A stretch of 37,403 nt of DNA from Elusimicrobiota bacterium (GTDB taxonomy: Bacteria; Elusimicrobiota; Elusimicrobia; Elusimicrobiales; UBA9959), in contig JAJUJA010000007.1 in NCBI GenBank assembly GCA_029267355.1, forward strand, positions 1 through 37,403. The letters run 5' to 3'. The notes under the pieces were generated by a model. It worked only from the letters and a program-made list of their open reading frames with translations. It was not told the origin of the DNA and did no database searches. Positions 23,367-35,282 of this stretch are shown here, piece after piece. The first letter of the stretch is position 1, and each line of letters opens with the position of its first letter. A program made the translations under genes and the position numbers.

Positions 23367-24602
23367 ATGAATAAACAAACTTCCCTGATCCCGCTGTTTT
23401 TATTGACAATGTTTTCAGTCTCTTTCTCAGCCGATATTTCCAAGCCTTTGCCGAACTGGATAGATCCCAACAGGGAAACGCCTGACGGGAAAGGCCCCTT
23501 TCTCCTTGATAGAAGGCTCGCCGTGCCGGCAAGTTTCAGAATTCCCGCGGAATATGAACCGGTATCTGCGGTGGTCCTTTCATGGGCGGGATATACAGAT
23601 ATGCTGGCCAAAATAGCAAGAGCTGCCTGCGTCAACGGAAAAGCCTCTGTGTGGATAAATGCCGCGCCGCAATCAATAAGCGGGCTTGATTCACAATGCT
23701 GGCAAAAAATACCGGCTCCTGTGGACACCGTCTGGGTCAGAGATTACGGTCCTTTCGGCCTTTCAGATGCCGGCACAAAACCCGGCATAGTTGATACTGT
23801 TTACAGGCATTATCAGTACAGGAGAAATGATGACGCTATTCCCATGGCGGTCGGCAAAGCCAAAAATATACCCGTCTATCAAACCGAGTTGATACTGGAC
23901 GGCGGGAATTTTATGGTGGATTCATACGGCAATCTGTTCATGACTGAAAGAACATACATCTGGAACTCAGGGATGAGCAAAGAGCAGGTTGATGAAGAGT
24001 TGAAAAAAGCTTTCAAGGTAAAAAATATATATGTCTTTGAATATGCCGGCTTTCCAAAGGAGCCCAAAGACGGCACAGGACACATAGATATGTTTATGAA
24101 GCTCTTAAATGACCATACGGTACTTATCGCCATAGCCGAACAGGAGCCCTTTAAGAGCAATTCTCAAAAAGCAATTAATTTTTTCAAAAACAAAACAGCT
24201 CCGGACGGACATCCTTACAAAGTTATAACTGTCAAGGGCTGGTATGAAGACTCCGGCTGGAGCGGCGGAACATGGTACACTTATACGAATTCCCTGATAG
24301 TTAATTCAACGGTCATAATGCCGGCCTACTCAGGCCATGATCAGGAAAATGCGGCCGCCGAAAATGCCTATAAGCAGGGCATACCCGGCGTGACTGTGGT
24401 GCAGGTAAATTCCGACGATTCCATAGTTTCAGGCGGCTCCATACACTGCGTAACGCAAACAATACCAAGGTATTCGGCAAAATCTGTTCCCCCTTCGATT
24501 TTGCTCAATAATCCTGAAGGCGAAGCTTACGATATGCAGCCTGAAATAGGAGAGTTTTCCCAATCAGAGCTTTTGAGAAAATTGACGGAATTTAAATTCT
24601 AA
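23367..24602 (+). CDS. Exported agmatine deiminase / bacterial peptidylarginine deiminase family protein
   Basis: 411 aa; signal peptide MNKQTSLIPLFLLTMFSVSFSA; WVRDYGPFG, LDGGNFMVDSYGN, GTGHIDMFMK, GGSIHCVTQTIP (catalytic Cys context). Confidence 0.88.
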   Translation: MNKQTSLIPLFLLTMFSVSFSADISKPLPNWIDPNRETPDGKGPFLLDRRLAVPASFRIPAEYEPVSAVVLSWAGYTDMLAKIARAACVNGKASVWINAAPQSISGLDSQCWQKIPAPVDTVWVRDYGPFGLSDAGTKPGIVDTVYRHYQYRRNDDAIPMAVGKAKNIPVYQTELILDGGNFMVDSYGNLFMTERTYIWNSGMSKEQVDEELKKAFKVKNIYVFEYAGFPKEPKDGTGHIDMFMKLLNDHTVLIAIAEQEPFKSNSQKAINFFKNKTAPDGHPYKVITVKGWYEDSGWSGGTWYTYTNSLIVNSTVIMPAYSGHDQENAAAENAYKQGIPGVTVVQVNSDDSIVSGGSIHCVTQTIPRYSAKSVPPSILLNNPEGEAYDMQPEIGEFSQSELLRKLTEFKF

Positions 24603-25618
24603 ATTCCAGGATGCTGCAATTTTGACATATTGCCCATAAGGACTTTGTATTCTTCCTGCCCGATATTGTTTTGCCATAAGTTTGATTTCACGGCATAAAT
24701 TTTCAGTAAAGCAAAAACTGCGGCGATGAAAAAAGGAACGATAAAGGGGCTGATTTTTAATGAAGAAACACAATTCCCCAATAAAAGGGATTTTCTTGAA
24801 GAGCATGCCGAAACACACATAAGACAAGACGAGCAGTCATCGGAAAAAACAAAGGCGTTCTTCATGGGATCTATTCTGTGAGGGCATGAAGCCCTGCAGG
24901 CCTGACAGGACGAGCAGGTCTGCTTTTCTCTTTTAATTCTGAAAGGCGAAAAAAAACCGGCCAAAGCCATCAGCGCGCCGTAAGGGCATAAATATCTGCA
25001 CCAGAAGAAATTAAAGAAAAAGCTCAAAATTATAAGAGAAACAATGACTGCCGCGGCAAAAAATGAAATCTTGGCGAAAAAATAATACATCTTTATATCC
25101 GAGATCTTATTGTACGGAGAATCCAAAAAAGAAACGAGCGAAATCAAATCCATGGAGACAAAAATGACATAAACAAAAAAGAAGAGAATGAGATACTTGA
25201 AGGATCTCAAAAAATAATCTAGCGGCCGCGGTATTTCAAAATCTCTTTTCAAAATCAGCTTTCTTAAATTGAGCAGAATTTCAGACAGAAAACCGAAAGG
25301 GCATACCCAGCCGCAAAAAGATTTCGCGGCAAACCATGAAACAAATAAGGCGCCTGCCAGAAAGAAAAATCCAGCCGGATGAGCCCTATGGACTTCTCCG
25401 TAAGAAAGAAAATACCTGATATTCATAAGAGAACTTATAGGCAGGAAGGAGTCAGCTCCAGGCGGTCTTGGAAAAAATTTCCCGGTTTCTAGTGAACTCA
25501 AAAACAGGCGGAACTCATAGCCAGCCCATACTGCCAGAAATGAAAAGGAGCAAAGAGAGATTATTCTCAAAAGCTGAAGCCTATTGAAGTAAAACAGGTA
25601 AAAAGAATTTTTATGCAT
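24599..25618 (-). CDS. NapH-like 4Fe-4S membrane protein
   Basis: 339 aa; several TM helices, CGWVCPFG and CRYLCPYGA motifs, two ferredoxin clusters CSSCQACRASCP and CSSCLMCVSAC. Confidence 0.85.
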   Translation of the reverse strand: MHKNSFYLFYFNRLQLLRIISLCSFSFLAVWAGYEFRLFLSSLETGKFFPRPPGADSFLPISSLMNIRYFLSYGEVHRAHPAGFFFLAGALFVSWFAAKSFCGWVCPFGFLSEILLNLRKLILKRDFEIPRPLDYFLRSFKYLILFFFVYVIFVSMDLISLVSFLDSPYNKISDIKMYYFFAKISFFAAAVIVSLIILSFFFNFFWCRYLCPYGALMALAGFFSPFRIKREKQTCSSCQACRASCPHRIDPMKNAFVFSDDCSSCLMCVSACSSRKSLLLGNCVSSLKISPFIVPFFIAAVFALLKIYAVKSNLWQNNIGQEEYKVLMGNMSKLQHPGI

Positions 25619-25855: not shown

Positions 25856-27010
25856 TCAATCAGCCAGTCTTTTTTCTCCCTCTATTTTCTTTATTTCCGT
25901 TATATCCTGAGTTACTTCCAGAATTCCCATGAAGGAGCCGAACTCGTCTCTTACCGGGAAATATCTTATGTATATGAGACGCCCTTTCATATTCAGCCAG
26001 AAATCATGCGAATTCCTGAGTCCGTTCTTGAGATCTTCTATAACTTTTTCCACGGCAGGCAAGCTCTGGGGAGGATGACAGTTTTTCACTTCCCGGCCTA
26101 TTACCGAAGGAGACCTTAAAAAAACTCTGTGCGAAGAATTTGAAAAATAAGCAACCTTGCCGCTGGAATCGACAAAAGTTATATCAATGGGCAGACAGTC
26201 AAATATCTTTCTTATCTGCTCAAGGGTGACCCTTCCGGTAGGGAAATTTACAAATCCGCCTTCAAAGCCGCTTTTTGCCGTTTTTTTCTCGATATCTTTG
26301 GCCTCAAAAACCTCGGGCGGCGCTTCTATAAAAGCGTATCCTGAGCCGGAGCTATGCTTGAAAATTTCGCTCCATTGCGAAGAAGACAGCTTTTCCAATG
26401 CCGTGGGGAAAAGAACATTTTCCTCCTTAAATATCATTGATTCTATTTCCTCAAAAAGCGCTGAAAGGCGGGCATTAAAGTCTGCGGAATTTAAAGCTTC
26501 AAAAGCTTTCCTAAAAAGATCCCTTACCTCATTATCCTTGCCCCACATTACTTTTGAAGGACCGAAAAAACCCTGTTTCTCAAGATAAGGGAAAAGTATC
26601 TGCTCCTTTCTCTCATAATGAAGATTAACGCCTTTTTTAAGCTCTTCAAGGCCCGCCTCCACAGCTTTAGCATCCCCTTTTTCAGCGGTCTGTTTCAAAA
26701 GGTTTATTTTCTCCCTTATCTTTGCATTCTCCGCTTTGAACAGATTTACGGGATGAGCCGGATTGGAAGAGTCTGAAACTCTGTTTTCAAACATGCCTTC
26801 AAAAAGCAGAGCGTGCACATTGCAAAATCTCTTTATTTCATCGGGGGGAATGCCCTCGTTTATAAGTTCCTGCTCTATAGCAAACAGCTCGGCTGATTCT
26901 ATATTGCCTATTTTGGAAACCACTTCTTTCTTGGCCTCTTCAAAGGACAGCCCTTGCGAAAGTTTCTTCAAAATCTCCTTTATGAACTCCTTTTTGCTGA
27001 TTCCGCCCAT
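25856..27010 (-). CDS. DUF438 - hemerythrin (HHE) - PAS protein
   Basis: 384 aa; DUF438-like N terminus, HHE segment (HPVNLFKAENAKIREKI...HYERKEQILFPYLEK), C-terminal PAS (LPIDITFVDSSGKVAYFSNSSHRVF...GILEVTQDITEIK). Confidence 0.88.
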   Translation of the reverse strand: MGGISKKEFIKEILKKLSQGLSFEEAKKEVVSKIGNIESAELFAIEQELINEGIPPDEIKRFCNVHALLFEGMFENRVSDSSNPAHPVNLFKAENAKIREKINLLKQTAEKGDAKAVEAGLEELKKGVNLHYERKEQILFPYLEKQGFFGPSKVMWGKDNEVRDLFRKAFEALNSADFNARLSALFEEIESMIFKEENVLFPTALEKLSSSQWSEIFKHSSGSGYAFIEAPPEVFEAKDIEKKTAKSGFEGGFVNFPTGRVTLEQIRKIFDCLPIDITFVDSSGKVAYFSNSSHRVFLRSPSVIGREVKNCHPPQSLPAVEKVIEDLKNGLRNSHDFWLNMKGRLIYIRYFPVRDEFGSFMGILEVTQDITEIKKIEGEKRLAD

Positions 27011-27019
27011 TTAACCTCC

Positions 27020-28462
27020 TTAAAATGACTCCTGTGTTTTGAACGGGTCCTTAAATTCTGCGCTTCTGTCAAAATTAAGCTTTTTCTCGCCCCTTGAGCT
27101 GAGATATTTTTCAAGCTCAAGGTCTATTTTCTCAGGCAGCTCTATTCCCGCTTTTTGAGCCGCCTGCCTTAGCAAAGCTTCGCTTTTTGAAGCGTATACC
27201 GCGGCATCGGCCAGAACCCGCATTGTCTCCTGAGGATTATGAAACCCGACGGAGTTTTCAGCGCCTATAAAAACCACTCTGTAAAAAGCCTGCTCATAAT
27301 ACTCTCTGGCTTTTTGATAAAGGGCCGAATCAATTTTTTTGCCTTGAGAAGCGGCAATATTCAATTTTTCAAAGATCTTCGCCGCGGCGGCTGCGGCATA
27401 GCCTGAGCGCATTAAAAGAGAAATTGTCCTGTCCTGAGTGAATTTAATCCTGTCTCTGAGCCAGTCTTCTCCCTGGGCATGGCATTGAATGCAGGCTCTC
27501 AAAGAATTCTTGAGAGGGCTTACAACCCTGTGATCCGACACTTTATATGAGCCGTATCTCACATAAGGCATATGGCAGTCTGCGCAGGAAAGGCCGGCTT
27601 TCCAGTGCGTACTCTGATTGCTGAACAGCTCAAATTCCGGGTGCCTTATGAAGCCCAGTTTAAAACCTGTGACAGCTTGCGTCCATTCAAGATTTGCCGG
27701 ATCGCTTTTTATGGTTTTTATTATGTCCTCAATGGCAATATTTCCGTACTTTGAGTTTTTCCAGGGAAAGAAAACATCCATGGACTTCATATCTTTGTCT
27801 TTTTTGACTACATAGGTGACATGGCACTGCGCGCAGACAAGGCTTCTCATGTCCTGATGCGAAGCTTTATTCTGGTCAAAACCAATTGAGTGCAGAGCCT
27901 TGCCCAGAGTAAAGTCATTAAGCAATCTGAGAGAAGCGTCTTCGCCGTTATGGCAGGAAATGCAGGCGACGCCCATTTTTTGATGATTTTTGGGTATCCA
28001 TGAATGAACCTCGTCAAAAGCTTTTGAAAAATAATCCCTGCCGTGCTCCTGCTGCAATTGCTGGGCATAAGGCGTCTTGCAGGTAAGACAGGCGCCCCCC
28101 GCCTTCCGCCTTGACGGGTCCACTTCCAGGACATCTTCAAGCATATGATAATGGCCTCTCGGCTCATTGTATTCTATGCCGAAGCCCCAGCCCTTGAACA
28201 AAAGCGCCATATAAGGGAATTCCGACAGTTTATCATATACCTTGCCGTCAGTATCCCATCCCTTTTTATAAAAACTTTTACCCGCAGGAGTAGGCTCTTT
28301 TGTCTTTTCCCAAAGTTCGTATTCAGCAGGATAATTGGCCGCCCATTTTTGCGGCTCATATTCATTTTTGTCTATTTTGGCCACCTTTATGGGGTCTGCG
28401 CTTTTTGAACAGGCCGCAATGGCCAGCAAGAGCGGTATCAAAATTATTCTGTTTATTCTCAT
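27020..28462 (-). CDS. nrfA: Ammonia-forming cytochrome c nitrite reductase (pentaheme)
   Basis: 480 aa; lipoprotein-like N terminus; catalytic CLTCK plus four CXXCH (CISCH, CAQCH, CADCH, CIQCH). Confidence 0.95.
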   Translation of the reverse strand: MRINRIILIPLLLAIAACSKSADPIKVAKIDKNEYEPQKWAANYPAEYELWEKTKEPTPAGKSFYKKGWDTDGKVYDKLSEFPYMALLFKGWGFGIEYNEPRGHYHMLEDVLEVDPSRRKAGGACLTCKTPYAQQLQQEHGRDYFSKAFDEVHSWIPKNHQKMGVACISCHNGEDASLRLLNDFTLGKALHSIGFDQNKASHQDMRSLVCAQCHVTYVVKKDKDMKSMDVFFPWKNSKYGNIAIEDIIKTIKSDPANLEWTQAVTGFKLGFIRHPEFELFSNQSTHWKAGLSCADCHMPYVRYGSYKVSDHRVVSPLKNSLRACIQCHAQGEDWLRDRIKFTQDRTISLLMRSGYAAAAAAKIFEKLNIAASQGKKIDSALYQKAREYYEQAFYRVVFIGAENSVGFHNPQETMRVLADAAVYASKSEALLRQAAQKAGIELPEKIDLELEKYLSSRGEKKLNFDRSAEFKDPFKTQESF

Positions 28463-28941
28463 TTTTTTACCTCCGTATTTTTAAAGCAATAGGCCGCGGT
28501 ATTTTTATGCGTCAATGACCTGTGGCAATCTATGCAATTTCTTTTTGAATCCACATGAGAAACAATATCGTTATGACATCTGATGCAGTTTCGCTGCAGC
28601 ACTTTCTTGCCGTGCGGGGAAAGAACTATTTCATCTTCTTCCTTCAAGCCCAAGGTCTGGCTTATAACATCCTTTGTTCCGTCTATCCCTTTCCAAAGGA
28701 AATGCTCAGGGATATTATCATTGGGCAAATGGCAATCTACGCATTTTAGCGTTCTATGTCTTGAATTGCTCCATGTCAAATGCTGAGATTTCATTGAGTG
28801 ACAACTAGCGCAAAATTTAGGACTTTCGGAATACTCAATGACTCTGGGCAAAATGACAATGGATATTGAAACTATAAAAATTGACGCCCAGAATAAGGGA
28901 AAGATATTTTCAAGAATAATTTTTTTCGTCTTTTTAAGCAT
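28459..28941 (-). CDS. nrfH: Tetraheme cytochrome c nitrite reductase small subunit
   Basis: 160 aa; N-terminal TM; CASCH, CVDCH, CIRCH, CIDCH. Confidence 0.94.
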   Translation of the reverse strand: MLKKTKKIILENIFPLFWASIFIVSISIVILPRVIEYSESPKFCASCHSMKSQHLTWSNSRHRTLKCVDCHLPNDNIPEHFLWKGIDGTKDVISQTLGLKEEDEIVLSPHGKKVLQRNCIRCHNDIVSHVDSKRNCIDCHRSLTHKNTAAYCFKNTEVKK

Positions 28942-29749
28942 AACTGTGCAATCCGCTAAGCAGGTAATTTACGCCAAAGTAAGTAAACACAACTATAAGC
29001 AATCCTATGAAAAGCGACATATAAAAGGTTTTCGCCGAAAATCCCGTCCTCTTCATATGAAGCAAAGCCGCATAGTAAAGCCAGCATATTAGAGACCATG
29101 TCTCCTTGGGATCCCAGCTCCAGTATCTGTTCCAGGCATTTTCAGCCCAAATAGCGCCGGTTATTATTGCTATTGTAAGCATGACAAAACCCGCCTTTAC
29201 CAGTTTAATACAGTAATCCTCTTTTTCAATCTCCTTCTTTACAAAGTAAAACAGCCCTCTCAAACCGGCTATGGCAAAAAATGAATAAGCAAGCATAGCG
29301 GTAAAGACATGAAAGAAAAGCCAGTTGGACCTCAGAGCGGGCATAAGAGGCCTTACTGCGGGGTCAAGCAAATTCAAAAGAGAAAACAGAGCAGGGGCCA
29401 GTACGGCGGCCGGCAGGATGAAAGCCGGCTTTAATTCCCTGAAAAAATAAACATAAAGAGAAATCATCAGAATGAACTGGGTTAAAAGCAATACAGATTC
29501 ATATTGGTTTGAAAGAGGCAATCTGCCGGCCTTGAAAGAAAAAATTGCAGTGTGAGCCGCAGACAAAAGCCATGAGAAAAGCAAAAGCAGAGAAGAAATT
29601 AAAAAAACTCTTTCCTTTTTTAGTATATAAGCATAAACATAGGAAGAAAGTGCCAGCAGAGAAAAAAACAAAGCCGCATTTATCATAATATCCATCCTAT
29701 AACTCCGGCTGCAAGAACAAAAAAACCGAGAAAAACAAGCCACAGCCAA
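28934..29749 (-). CDS. ccsA: Cytochrome c biogenesis protein CcsA/ResC
   Basis: WAENAWNRYWSWDPKETWSLICWLYYAALLH signature; multiple TMs. The true start may lie inside the ORF (e.g. MDIMINAALFF). Confidence 0.92.
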   Translation of the reverse strand: MAVACFSRFFCSCSRSYRMDIMINAALFFSLLALSSYVYAYILKKERVFLISSLLLLFSWLLSAAHTAIFSFKAGRLPLSNQYESVLLLTQFILMISLYVYFFRELKPAFILPAAVLAPALFSLLNLLDPAVRPLMPALRSNWLFFHVFTAMLAYSFFAIAGLRGLFYFVKKEIEKEDYCIKLVKAGFVMLTIAIITGAIWAENAWNRYWSWDPKETWSLICWLYYAALLHMKRTGFSAKTFYMSLFIGLLIVVFTYFGVNYLLSGLHSYA

Positions 29750-30594
29750 TTGTCTTTTTTGACGGTCAATACGGAAGACTCGCCCGCTGAAGGCTCATAG
29801 CTTGTCTGATATATTTTGTAGCCATTGAATTTAGCCGGAGAATTAACTGAAACTTCAGCTTTTTGCTGAGAACCCCTGTAGAGAATTGAAATCACGCTTT
29901 TATAATCCTTTATGTCCGCATTCTCAATTATAAGCTTAAAAGGTAGAGAATTCCCGTTATGCGAAGAAAGATTTGCAAAAATCCAGGCGCTTTCTTTTTT
30001 GCCGGCTTTCTTGCAGCCAATTTTGACGGCTGGATTATTAAAAAAGGAGCTTCTATTAAGCGCTTTTCCCGACTCGTTTAAAACAAAGTCATTTAGAAAC
30101 TCCTCAACCCTGCAATCCAGGCCGGCCTTCCTTATAACAGATGAAGGAACGGCCTCAAGGCGCGAGCCGTCCTCAAGGACTATATACGGACTGGGCTGAT
30201 TGTAATACTCAATATAAAAATTTTCAAGCCTTATTCTGAACGGGATTTTGTATACGGCGTCCGAGTTTGAAACCATATTGCTCTCCTGGCCCTTGTAAAG
30301 GAAAATCTCCCCTTCAAAACCGTAAAAAGAGCTCATAATAAAACCAAAAATGCATATTATCACGCCTGAATGAATCAAGACAAACGAAATCTTAGGCCAG
30401 GGTTTGCGGGATAATCTTAAAGCGAGGCAGGATGATATATTGGCCAGGAGAAGAAAAACTGAAAAATAGAAAAAGGATGAATGACCGGAAAAGAAATCCT
30501 TTTGAATGAGAGTTTCATAAGCAAGAGCAGCCGCTGCTATGGAAACTGCAGCAAAAAAAACTTTCAACGAAGCAAGCGCTTTTAAAATTTTCAT
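29683..30594 (-). CDS. resB: Cytochrome c biogenesis protein ResB
   Basis: 303 aa; LRLSRKPWPKISFVLIHSGVIICIFGFIMSSFYGFEGEIFLYKGQ; FNGYKIYQTSYEP; paired with ccsA. Confidence 0.88.
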   Translation of the reverse strand: MKILKALASLKVFFAAVSIAAAALAYETLIQKDFFSGHSSFFYFSVFLLLANISSCLALRLSRKPWPKISFVLIHSGVIICIFGFIMSSFYGFEGEIFLYKGQESNMVSNSDAVYKIPFRIRLENFYIEYYNQPSPYIVLEDGSRLEAVPSSVIRKAGLDCRVEEFLNDFVLNESGKALNRSSFFNNPAVKIGCKKAGKKESAWIFANLSSHNGNSLPFKLIIENADIKDYKSVISILYRGSQQKAEVSVNSPAKFNGYKIYQTSYEPSAGESSVLTVKKDNWLWLVFLGFFVLAAGVIGWIL

Positions 30595-30633: not shown

Positions 30634-30662
30634 TTGACATACCCTTTCAAAAATGATACATT
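30634..30662 (+). promoter_or_regulatory. Predicted promoter towards rrf2-hcp
   Basis: TTGACA (30634-30639), 17-nt spacer, TACATT (30657-30662, 4/6). Confidence 0.45.
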
Positions 30663-30674
30663 TTTAGTATCATT
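30652..30674. promoter_or_regulatory. Candidate Rrf2/NsrR-type operator (perfect inverted repeat IR1)
   Basis: AATGATAC-ATTTTTA-GTATCATT, 8-bp arms, 23 bp total. Confidence 0.6.
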
Positions 30675-30681
30675 AAGTCAA
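30653..30681 (-). promoter_or_regulatory. Predicted divergent promoter towards resB-ccsA-nrfHA
   Basis: Minus strand TTGACT (30681-30676), 17-nt spacer, TATCAT (30658-30653, 5/6). Confidence 0.5.
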
Positions 30682-30735
30682 TAGCTCTCTAAAAACAGGA
30701 TGATTCACGGAGCCCTGAGTTTGTTTTTTTCCTTA

Positions 30736-30761
30736 TAAATTGGTATTATGAAGCCAATTTA
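30736..30761. promoter_or_regulatory. Second inverted repeat (IR2) directly upstream of rrf2
   Basis: TAAATTGG-TATTATGAAG-CCAATTTA, 8-bp perfect arms; contains a TATTAT box. Confidence 0.5.
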
Positions 30762-30782: not shown

Positions 30783-31178
30783 ATGAAACATCTGCTTAAG
30801 ATTTCTGAAGCTTCCATAATAGCCATTCACGCGGTCAGGCATTTAAATTCCAAAAACGGCCGCGCCATGGGAGCCAGCAGTCTTTCAAAAGAACTGAAGG
30901 TCTCCTATAATCATCTCAGCAAGGTCCTGCAAAAGCTTTCCGCGGCCGGAATTCTGGCGTCGGAAAGAGGACCGCGCGGAGGGTATTATCTCACTCAAAA
31001 AGGGCAAAACTGCCTTTTGATGGATATACTTTCCGCCATAGAAGGCGATCTCAATTATTCCAATTGCCTGAGAAACGGCTTCAGATGCCGCGCCGGCAGT
31101 TGTGAAATAAGAAGCTTTCTTTCTTCGCTCAACAGCGCCTTCAATGAACTTATTAAGAAAAAGGTGAATCAATTATAA
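30783..31178 (+). CDS. Rrf2-family transcriptional regulator with putative Fe-S cysteines
   Basis: 131 aa; Rrf2 HTH (ASSLSKELKVSYNHLSKVLQKLSAAGILASERGPRGGYYL); cysteine set CLRNGFRCRAGSC. Confidence 0.92.
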   Translation: MKHLLKISEASIIAIHAVRHLNSKNGRAMGASSLSKELKVSYNHLSKVLQKLSAAGILASERGPRGGYYLTQKGQNCLLMDILSAIEGDLNYSNCLRNGFRCRAGSCEIRSFLSSLNSAFNELIKKKVNQL

Positions 31179-31187
31179 GGAGAATAT

Positions 31188-32843
31188 ATGCAAGAAGAAA
31201 AAATGTTTTGCTATCAGTGCGAACAGGCCAAAAACGGCAAGGGATGCGACAGCATAGGGATATGCGGCAAAGACCCGGAAACAGCCTTAATGCAGGATTT
31301 GCTGGTTTATCAGACTAAGGGAATTTCTTTTTATGCAAATGCCTTGAGAAAAAAAGGCTTTAAAACTGAAAAGGCCGACAAATTTGTCATAGAAGCCCTT
31401 TTTACTACGGTAACAAATGTGAATTTTGACTCCGCAAAAGTTAAGGGAATGATAGATAAAGGACAGGAAATAAAGGAGGAATTAAAAAATAACTTCAAGG
31501 AGAACGGACTTTCCCAAAAAGATATTCCCCCTCATGCCGCCTGGCAGCCCTCTGAAAAACTTCCGGATTTAATAAAGTTTGCCTCAGAAAACGGAATTAT
31601 TGCTTCCAAAAAGAGCAGCGGAGAGGATATTACTGCTCTGCGAGAACTTCTTATATACGGTCTTAAGGGCACGGCGGCCTATGCAGATCATGCCATGATA
31701 CTTGGCCAAACTGATGATAAGGTTTTCGCCTTTTTCCATGAGGCGCTTTCTTTTTTGACAAGACCGCAGCATACAGCAGACGAATTGTTTGCTATGAATA
31801 TGAAATGCGGAGAAGTGAATTTAAGAGTTATGGAACTTCTTGATCTCGCCAATACAGGCGCCTACGGCCATCCCGTGCCGACAAAAGTCAGGATCACTCC
31901 CGTCAAAGGTAAAGCCATACTGGTATCAGGACATGACCTTAAAGACCTTGAGGAACTGCTTAAACAGACGGAAGGCAAGGGGATAAACGTATACACACAC
32001 GGCGAAATGCTTCCGGCCCACGGCTATCCGGGCCTTAAAAAATACAGGCATCTAGCCGGCAATTACGGCGGCGCCTGGCAGGATCAGCAGAAGGAGTTCA
32101 AATCTTTTCCGGGGGCCATTCTGATGACCACCAACTGCATACAAAAGCCGTCAGGATATGAAAACAGGATTTTCACAAGCGGCCTCGTTCAATGGCCGGG
32201 CGTAAAACATGTAAATAATTCTGATTTTTCGCCTGTAATAGAGGCAGCCATGGCTGAGGAAGGATTTAAGAAAGACGGAGAAGAAAAGTACATAACCGTC
32301 GGTTTCGCCAGAAATGCGGTCATATCAGTTGCCGATACTGTAATAGACCATGTGAAGAAAGGAAAGATAAAGCACTTTTTCCTTGTCGGCGGCTGCGACG
32401 GGGCCAAGCCGGGCAGGAATTATTATACCGAGTTTGCCGAGAAAGCGCCGAAGGATACTGTCATACTGACTTTGGCTTGCGGCAAATTCAGATTCAATAA
32501 AATGGAGTTTGGCGAAATAGAAGGCATACCGAGACTGCTTGACGCCGGACAATGCAATGACGCTTACTCAGCAATACAAATAGCTCTGGCTCTTTCAAAC
32601 GCTTTTAAACTGCCTGTAAATGAGCTGCCTTTATCTCTTGTTCTTTCATGGTATGAGCAGAAAGCTGTATGCATTCTCCTTACACTTCTGCATCTGGGCA
32701 TAAAGAATATAAGGATAGGGCCTTCGCTGCCGGCCTTCATAACTCCGGCCGTGCTGAAAGTTCTTGTTGAAAAATTCAATATAATGCCTGTAAAAAATGC
32801 AGAGCAGGACCTGAAAGATATACTTAAACTCAGCAAAGTATAA
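31188..32843 (+). CDS. hcp: Hydroxylamine reductase / hybrid cluster protein
   Basis: 551 aa; MFCYQCEQAKNGKGCDSIGICGKDPETALMQDLLVYQTKG; C-terminal GIKNIRIGPSLPAFITPAVL. Confidence 0.96.
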   Translation: MQEEKMFCYQCEQAKNGKGCDSIGICGKDPETALMQDLLVYQTKGISFYANALRKKGFKTEKADKFVIEALFTTVTNVNFDSAKVKGMIDKGQEIKEELKNNFKENGLSQKDIPPHAAWQPSEKLPDLIKFASENGIIASKKSSGEDITALRELLIYGLKGTAAYADHAMILGQTDDKVFAFFHEALSFLTRPQHTADELFAMNMKCGEVNLRVMELLDLANTGAYGHPVPTKVRITPVKGKAILVSGHDLKDLEELLKQTEGKGINVYTHGEMLPAHGYPGLKKYRHLAGNYGGAWQDQQKEFKSFPGAILMTTNCIQKPSGYENRIFTSGLVQWPGVKHVNNSDFSPVIEAAMAEEGFKKDGEEKYITVGFARNAVISVADTVIDHVKKGKIKHFFLVGGCDGAKPGRNYYTEFAEKAPKDTVILTLACGKFRFNKMEFGEIEGIPRLLDAGQCNDAYSAIQIALALSNAFKLPVNELPLSLVLSWYEQKAVCILLTLLHLGIKNIRIGPSLPAFITPAVLKVLVEKFNIMPVKNAEQDLKDILKLSKV

Positions 32844-33743: not shown

Positions 33744-34325
33744 ATGCCTTCTATAAAAGGTACAAAAACTGAAAAAAATCTTCTCACAGCCTTCGCCGGA
33801 GAGTCTCAGGCAAGGAACAGATACACCTTCTACGCTTCAGCGGCAAAGAAGGAGGGCTACGTGCAGATTTCCAAAATTTTTGAGGAAACTGCCGAACAGG
33901 AAAAAGAGCATGCAAAAAGATTTTATAAATTTCTGGAAGGCGGAGAGCTTAATCTTAATGTCAATGCCGCCTTCCCCGCCGGCATAATAGCCGACACGAA
34001 AACAAATCTTATACATGCCGCCGAAGGAGAGGGTTATGAATGGGGACATATGTATCCCGATTTTTCCAAAATCGCGAAAGAGGAAGGTTTTGACGCTATA
34101 GCCAAAGTTTTTGAGGCTGTGGCAGTGGCCGAAAGACAGCATGAAAAAAGATACAGGGATTTGGCCGCCAACATAGAGGCCGGCAGAGTTTTCAAAAGAG
34201 AAAAAAATCAAAAATGGAGATGCCTGAACTGCGGCTATGTGCATGAAGGCAATGAAGCTCCTGCTTCCTGTCCAGCTTGCGCTCATCCCAGGGATTATTT
34301 TGAGCTTCTCGGCGAAAACTGGTAA
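33744..34325 (+). CDS. rbr: Rubrerythrin
   Basis: 193 aa; diiron domain (TAFAGESQARNRYTFYA, EETAEQEKEHAKRF, VAVAERQHEKRY) and rubredoxin-like C terminus CLNCGYVHEG...CPACAHPRDYFE. Confidence 0.96.
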   Translation: MPSIKGTKTEKNLLTAFAGESQARNRYTFYASAAKKEGYVQISKIFEETAEQEKEHAKRFYKFLEGGELNLNVNAAFPAGIIADTKTNLIHAAEGEGYEWGHMYPDFSKIAKEEGFDAIAKVFEAVAVAERQHEKRYRDLAANIEAGRVFKREKNQKWRCLNCGYVHEGNEAPASCPACAHPRDYFELLGENW

Positions 34326-34334
34326 GGAGATAAA

Positions 34335-34895
34335 ATGGAAGAGAACTTGAACGAGCAGAATGAACAGCAGCAGATTGTCAAAAGAACCGTGATGATGAAG
34401 GGAAGGCCTATGGATCTTCACGGTCATCTTCCCCAAACAGGCGCGCCGGCTCCCGATTTCAAGGCAACGGCGAATGATATGCTTCCAATGAAGTTCAAAA
34501 GGACTTATGCCGGCAAAACCGTGCTCATAAGCTCCGTTCCTTCTCTGGATACGCCTGTTTGCGACATTGAAACAAGAAAATTCAATTCAGAAGCTGAAAA
34601 GCTTTCCCCTGAGATTGAAATAGTCACGATAAGCATGGATCTGCCATTCGCGCAGGCCAGGTGGTGCGGAGCCGCCGGAATAAAGAGGGTAAAGACTTAT
34701 TCTGATTATATCAAGGCTGAATTCGGCAAAACCTACGGCGTGCTTATAAAGGATTTGCGTCTTCTGGCGCGCGCCATATTCATAGTTGATAAAGACTTCA
34801 ATCTCAGATATGTTCAAGTAGTGCCGGAAGTCACTCAGGAGCCGAATTATGAGGAGGCTCTTAAGGCGCTTAAGGAAGCGGCTGAATCAAATTAA
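34335..34895 (+). CDS. tpx: Thiol peroxidase
   Basis: 186 aa; SVPSLDTPVCDIETRKFN (peroxidatic Cys), DLPFAQARWCGAAGI (resolving Cys). Confidence 0.94.
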   Translation: MEENLNEQNEQQQIVKRTVMMKGRPMDLHGHLPQTGAPAPDFKATANDMLPMKFKRTYAGKTVLISSVPSLDTPVCDIETRKFNSEAEKLSPEIEIVTISMDLPFAQARWCGAAGIKRVKTYSDYIKAEFGKTYGVLIKDLRLLARAIFIVDKDFNLRYVQVVPEVTQEPNYEEALKALKEAAESN

Positions 34896-34904
34896 GGAGG
34901 AGAC

Positions 34905-35282
34905 ATGACACAAATGAAAGGCGTTTATAAATGCGAAGTGTGCGGCAATATAGTTGAGGTATTGCATACCGGAGCGGGCGCTCTGGTGTGCTGCGGAAAA
35001 GAGATGAAATATTTCAAGGAAAATACAACAGACGGCGCCAAAGAAAAGCATGTCCCCGTCATAGAAAAGACAAATGACGGCTATCTTGTTAAAGTAGGCT
35101 CCATAGCCCATCCCATGGAGGACAAGCATTATATAGAATGGATAGAGCTTATAGCCGACGGCGTTTCCTACAGAAAATTTCTGAAACCCGGAGAAAAGCC
35201 TGAAGCCTTTTTTTGCGTAAAGGCCGAAAAGGCGGAAGCCAGAGAATACTGCAATCTCCATGGTTTGTGGAAAGCTGCATAA
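34905..35282 (+). CDS. dfx: Desulfoferrodoxin (superoxide reductase)
   Basis: 125 aa; [58 protein letters not shown]. Confidence 0.95.

Follow-up and report, generated by a model that had tools for sequence, protein, structure and literature searches.

The window, i.e., the whole stretch of 37,403 nucleotides from an Elusimicrobiota bacterium that we analyzed (source genome G000; 1.93 Mb, 94% complete), contains the two divergent gene clusters named in the original prediction: the minus strand carries resB-ccsB-nrfH-nrfA-hemerythrin/PAS, the plus strand rrf2-hcp (Table 1). The Rrf2 protein encoded beside the intergenic site is referred to as RrfA. The true start of ccsB probably lies inside the open frame listed, and the DUF438-hemerythrin-PAS gene is the probable end of the nrf operon. 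Downstream of this operon, positions 24599-25618 encode a NapH/NosR-like membrane ferredoxin, which scores well below the NapH cut-off and is a possible quinol-linked electron donor. The protein encoded at 23367-24602 has a PAD_porph fold (96.9 bits; agmatine deiminase cut-off, 381.8) and a signal-peptide-like N-terminal stretch, and is possibly a secreted relative. Downstream of hcp, genes for rubrerythrin, a redoxin-type peroxidase and desulfoferrodoxin (33744-35282) form an oxidative-stress cluster adjoining the nitrosative one.

A promoter scan assigned 10/12 consensus matches both to TTGACA-17-TACATT on the plus strand (30634-30662) and to TTGACT-17-TATCAT on the minus strand (30681-30653). 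As originally proposed, both -10 hexamers lie within a perfect 23-bp inverted repeat, AATGATAC-ATTTTTA-GTATCATT, whose 8-bp arms match without mismatch and flank a non-palindromic 7-bp center. The span first given for it, 30652-30681, holds for the start; the repeat itself ends at 30674, and the extension to 30681 includes the minus-strand -35 hexamer. Its dyad is organized as 8-7-8, and as 9-5-9 in relatives, instead of the 11-1-11 layout that had been assumed.

Table 1. Genes and predicted regulatory features around the rrfA/resB intergenic region (window coordinates).
Feature	Position	Strand	Basis or remark
DUF438-hemerythrin-PAS protein	25856..27010	-	conserved neighbor in G002 and G012
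nrfA, cytochrome c552 nitrite reductase	27020..28462	-	Pfam Cytochrom_C552, 2.7e-145
nrfH, nitrite reductase small subunit	28459..28941	-	TIGR03153, 124.5 bits, below cut-off of 134.2
ccsB, cytochrome c biogenesis	28934..29749	-	TIGR03144, 188.2 bits, cut-off 187.6
resB, cytochrome c biogenesis, first gene of divergent operon	29683..30594	-	Pfam ResB, 1.3e-16
-35 hexamer TTGACA, rrfA-hcp promoter P1	30634..30639	+	promoter scan; kept in G002
Predicted operator (RrfB box), AATGATAC-N7-GTATCATT, perfect inverted repeat	30652..30674	no strand	family-wide consensus; identical in G002
-10 hexamer TATCAT, ccs-nrf promoter	30653..30658	-	inside repeat; promoter scan
-10 hexamer TACATT of P1	30657..30662	+	inside repeat; promoter scan
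-35 hexamer TTGACT, ccs-nrf promoter	30676..30681	-	1 bp from repeat; geometry as at rrfB promoters
Possible second promoter P2, TTGTTT-17-TATTAT	30721..30749	+	weak, inferred; read from sequence; over RrfA-type box
Decayed RrfA-type box, TTGGTATTATGAAGCCA	30740..30756	+	4 mismatches to YTGGTATANTAATACCA; 26 bp upstream of rrfA
rrfA, Rrf2-family regulator	30783..31178	+	Pfam Rrf2, 3.8e-22; clade A
hcp, hybrid cluster protein (hydroxylamine reductase family)	31188..32843	+	NF003658, 828.8 bits, cut-off 367

Recurrence of the repeat in the genome and the phylum

Taken alone, a single repeat of this kind is unremarkable: the whole window holds four perfect 8-7-8 repeats and 22 perfect 8-bp-arm repeats with gaps of 0-12, and 8.6% of shuffles of the rrfA/resB intergenic region contain a perfect 8-bp-arm repeat. 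Since such repeats are common by chance, the meaning of this one must come from comparison, and it is recurrence that gives it significance. A scan of G000 for AATGATAC-N7-GTATCATT and footprinting in relatives had both been proposed as checks. With at most one mismatch, the genome contains exactly three copies, all upstream of gene starts; matches with three mismatches were disregarded because the control gave more of them. One of the two copies outside the window lies on contig C78, where it stands 5 bp ahead of the start codon (ATG) of another rrf2 gene, which we call rrfB (G000:C78:156561-156953) and which is followed by a gene for an FrdX-like 277-aa two-[4Fe-4S] ferredoxin. The other is perfect (G000:C20; L001/L010 231-253), lies over a TTGACT-17-TATAAT promoter right after a HesB-like Fe-S gene, and precedes a secreted-protein gene cut off by the contig end.

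Among the 295 phylum genomes scanned, the family of the source organism (f1) has 44 copies with at most one mismatch in 31 genomes, compared to none in the reversed-pattern control; outside this family the five copies found do not exceed chance (six in the control). The family consensus is AATGATACY-N5-RGTATCATT. The repeat is conserved in the syntenic relatives G002 and G012. Alignment with the congener G002 shows no difference across 31 consecutive columns, which span the repeat and the minus-strand -35 hexamer, while the flanks have diverged, and the divergent hcp/nrf arrangement with the repeat recurs in G012. This conservation supports the earlier proposals that the operator is placed to block both divergent promoters and that it links Hcp with NrfHA.

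In about 20 genomes, the repeat lies 5-11 bp before the rrfB ATG, nearly always with a ferredoxin gene following rrfB; such a position is typical of, and suggests, autoregulation. Furthermore, a TTGACN -35 hexamer precedes the repeat by 0-2 bp in 48 of 60 rrfB promoters. The ccs-nrf promoter of the window shares this layout, with the -10 inside the repeat, and the rrfA-hcp promoter has its -35 placed 12 bp before the repeat, as it does in G002 and G012. With the -35 abutting it, the repeat takes up both the spacer and the -10, as expected for a repressor that keeps RNA polymerase off the promoter. Despite the frequency of such repeats in shuffled sequence, a chance palindrome or a hairpin devoid of any regulatory role is contradicted by the recurrence in the family and by the fixed position at rrfB promoters, and we consider it negligibly probable. 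The repeat is best read as a genuine, conserved repressor operator.

Several copies were found in other settings. In the sister genus g4, the repeat lies near a gene for a small protein without a Pfam match, followed by pyruvate kinase and ABC ATPase genes (L048 5208, L062 5245, L063 5546, L068 5445), an unexpected further target. At a contig end of G001 (C34; L069 1-60), a copy is flanked by TTGACTT directly adjoining it and, on the opposite side, by a TTGACA in divergent orientation, resembling the divergent promoter of the window; neither hcp nor nrfA was detected in G001. G010, which is 98% complete and has no RrfB, carries a one-mismatch copy before the TRAP transporter gene dctM (L049 5337), which may reflect chance or another regulator.

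RrfA and RrfB as candidate regulators of the repeat

According to the original prediction, the adjacent Rrf2 protein, as a candidate NO/nitrite sensor, could bind the repeat and control both promoters. The distribution of the site does not bear this out, since the site travels with the paralogue RrfB. For this comparison, genes of relatives were located by tblastn, since antisense frames gave misleading longest-ORF calls in the GC-rich ones. Among 37 family genomes, 20 have both RrfB and the repeat, 14 have neither, two have RrfB only and one has the site only, so that presence agrees in 34 of 37 (Fisher p = 2.7e-7, for related genomes and uncorrected for kinship). Both RrfB-only genomes carry degraded copies of the repeat before rrfB. 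The window site shows all three features by which we define the class of RrfB-clade operators, namely a near-exact repeat, an abutting -35 and RrfB in the genome.

The two paralogues are also distinct as proteins. In a tree of 71 proteins, the Rrf2 of the window falls into clade A (99/97), and the Rrf2 proteins encoded beside a repeat, all but one, form part of another group (88/85). RrfB and its homologues carry the recognition helix RPFLRK versus SYNHLSK in clade A including the RrfA of the window, and the cysteine spacing is x6/x5 in RrfB versus x6/x4 in RrfA (C95-x6-C102-x4-C107).

Where family genomes have hcp, an RrfA orthologue is in most cases encoded ahead of it, and the RrfA orthologues appear to have an operator of their own. 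The dyad YTGGTATANTAATACCA, allowing up to three mismatches, is present in 23 of 27 distinct rrfA upstream regions (0.07 in shuffles) and covers the -10 of rrfA promoters in relatives. RrfA was dropped as the cognate regulator of the repeat once these boxes had turned up. Genome-wide, a scan for the RrfA box at up to two mismatches gave similar numbers in controls and is too unspecific, yet it picks out rrfA-hcp promoters. In the window, the corresponding box is decayed and lies within an imperfect dyad, AAATTGG-N10-CCAATTT (30737-30760); the G002 box has three mismatches to YTGGTATANTAATACCA and an intact left half. The alignment shows TTTGTTTTTTT and TTGGTAT conserved in G002 at P2 and the RrfA-type box. 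The box remnant and P2 are suggestive features.

The genus of G012 and G020 presents an apparent regulator swap at one gene, hcp. In G012, hemerythrin/PAS-rrfB-frdX and hcp-resB-ccsB-nrfHA are divergent with one repeat between them (L050 5335) and no rrfA at the locus. Its congener G020 is without RrfB, and here an RrfA-type box, TTAGTATTATTATACTAA (L097 1903-1920, L124), stands before hcp; this box resembles the one before the rrfA gene of G020 itself. The box at hcp therefore follows the regulator that is present in the genome.

The gene position of rrfA next to the repeat speaks for binding by RrfA, and a change in its specificity is conceivable because the RrfA of the window sits on a longer branch (0.88) and its box has decayed, with four mismatches in G000; such a diverged protein could have taken over the RrfB site. 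However, its recognition helix is unchanged (SYNHLSKVLQ), RrfB retains the repeat at its own promoter in G000, genomes with RrfA and without RrfB (G017, G020) lack good copies of the repeat, and in G012 it is RrfB that is found at the locus where the repeat adjoins hcp. We regard control of both promoters by RrfA as unlikely, and the cognate repressor of the repeat is most likely RrfB, encoded elsewhere. Among the observations that count against RrfB are that it is encoded away from the window site and that G010 has a one-mismatch site without RrfB.

Another arrangement, compatible with binding of RrfB to the repeat, is a two-input control of rrfA-hcp in which RrfB, bound to the repeat, governs P1 and the ccs-nrf promoter, and RrfA acts at the decayed box over P2. 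The RrfA box is widespread in relatives, and its left half is kept in G002 together with a T-tract whose hexamers are 17 bp apart. On the other hand, the right half-site is degraded and the P2 hexamers are weak and were missed by the consensus promoter scan. Such dual control is a tentative option, to which we give somewhat less than even odds.

Relation to known regulators

RrfA and RrfB both belong to the Rrf2 superfamily (PF02082, 79.3 and 82.5 bits, respectively; cut-off 30). With TIGR00738 (cut-off 73.3 bits), RrfA scores 76.6, the RrfB of G000 falls just below at 72.7, and RrfB homologues reach 95-108. Their AlphaFold models (pLDDT 85.3 and 88.4) have a winged-helix fold with RsrR, NsrR, CymR, and IscR as best PDB matches; for each of the two, the closest solved structures are Fe-S Rrf2 regulators (RsrR, NsrR), the best matches of RrfB being RsrR, NsrR, and IscR. 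Three cysteines are invariant in each protein: C91, C98, and C104 in RrfB, and C95, C102, and C107 in RrfA. Asp8 is a further ligand in ScNsrR; D9 is invariant in RrfB, whereas RrfA has no invariant Asp at position 9. In NsrR, three cysteines ligate the NO-sensitive cluster (PMC2577008, PMC9338935). RrfB is probably an Fe-S-binding three-cysteine Rrf2 repressor and may sense NO or nitrosative stress via its conserved cysteines. A nitrosative signal is the natural guess because the predicted targets are hcp, nrfHA, ferredoxin and hemerythrin genes; sensing of iron, oxygen or redox state would leave the same traces.

The operator had been likened to NsrR sites, and this holds for its being an Rrf2-type operator of 23 bp, the length also of the ScNsrR operator (PMC9338935). 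Its half-site and spacing are not NsrR-like, since GATAC-N7-GTATC here, and likewise the family consensus, differ from the NsrR consensus gATGyAT-N5-ATrCATc (PMC1274295). The system shares with NsrR, the Rrf2 NO-sensing repressor of hmp, hcp, nirK and others, the fold, the three cysteines, hcp as target and the operator over the promoter, and it may well work in a similar way. Assignment to NsrR itself finds no support in the curated profile: against NF008240 (cut-off 182 bits), RrfB scores 40.7 and RrfA 34.9 bits, and the cysteine spacing of E. coli NsrR is x4/x5 rather than x6/x5. Both proteins also fall below all curated equivalog cut-offs for NsrR, IscR, RirA, CymR, and SUF regulators. They resemble IscR, RirA, and SUF regulators in superfamily and in having three cysteines, but they miss those cut-offs and the cysteines of E. 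coli IscR are spaced x5/x5. RisR of Myxococcus xanthus is an Rrf2 repressor of isc and suf whose core palindrome GAC-N7-GTC overlaps -10/-35 hexamers (PMC9973013). The AC-N7-GT spacing is shared, whereas the half-site bases differ and the RisR targets are Fe-S assembly operons; here, the sites were compared by description only.

In other anaerobes, hcp, frdX, nrfHA, and hemerythrin-type genes are controlled by the CRP/FNR-type regulator HcpR (PMC1274295). This regulon is nearly the same as the one described here, so that a nitrosative regulator of this type (HcpR) or some other factor might bind the repeat. The regulator proposed here is an Rrf2 protein, i.e., of a different family and with a different operator. 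The repeat fits none of the published HcpR consensuses (wTGTGAnnnnnnTCACAw, wyTTGACnnnnGTCAArw, GTAACnnnnGTTAC; PMC1274295) and tracks an Rrf2 gene in many genomes, which makes binding by such a factor highly improbable.

Proposed regulon and its reach

We favor, with a probability of roughly 0.78, the interpretation that the repeat serves as operator for RrfB, whose gene lies on another contig and which would block both divergent promoters and thereby couple ccs-nrfHA, rrfA-hcp, and its own ferredoxin operon. With an RrfB dimer on the repeat, both -10 hexamers would be masked, silencing resB-ccsB-nrfH-nrfA and rrfA-hcp at once; via its own copy of the repeat, RrfB would also repress its ferredoxin operon. 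If the RrfB cluster were damaged, with NO or related nitrogen species as the most plausible cause, the operator would be freed and nitrite ammonification, Hcp, and ferredoxin would be induced jointly. RrfA probably acts, if at all, via a separate box, partly decayed, that lies 26 bp ahead of rrfA. Binding and repression by RrfB, its Fe-S cluster and its signal are what we infer from sequence comparison.

Most relatives have the repeat at rrfB only and an RrfA box at hcp, which confines RrfB control of hcp/nrf to G000, G002, and G012 (possibly also G001, at the contig end). Within about 1.5 kb of nrfA, no RrfB box is present in G005, G006, G014 and G022, four further members of the family, and control of nrf is thus not family-wide.

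An exact-pattern scan of 84,980 species found the repeat in at least 117 stretches, and 80 matches were listed and examined. An RrfB-like gene lies directly downstream at 50 of these 80 listed matches, 35 of them with frdX and 19 with hcp, and at three more frdX or hcp follows straight after the repeat. The remaining 27 listed matches are unexplained, and roughly 15 are expected from base composition alone. Listed matches outside the phylum belong mostly to Omnitrophota, others being labelled Aminicenantes, Auribacterota, Sumerlaeota, Saganbacteria, Planctomycetes, and Anaerolineae; these labels may be wrong because the genomes are metagenome bins. A typical order at these matches is repeat-rrfB-frdX-hcp.

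It seems somewhat more probable than its opposite, taking all parts jointly, that RrfB and its operator represent a previously undescribed Rrf2 subfamily and regulon (rrf2-frdX-hcp) common to Elusimicrobiota, Omnitrophota and several other uncultured lineages, which does the job of HcpR/NsrR, and that in Elusimicrobiota the control of hcp changed hands between two Rrf2 paralogues, each with an operator of its own, and was extended to nitrite ammonification in the genus of the window. Our literature search, which covered few subscription papers and did not extend to RegPrecise, returned no study that connects Rrf2 with hcp in either Omnitrophota or Elusimicrobiota, and within the literature searched nothing has apparently been published on regulation in these lineages. 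The locus cautions that a regulator gene adjoining an operator need not encode the protein that binds there, and it presents two paralogous repressors that appear to exchange control of one target gene in a way readable from sequence. For lineages almost without cultured members, it provides a concrete operator and a candidate regulator for nitrosative-stress and nitrite-ammonification genes.
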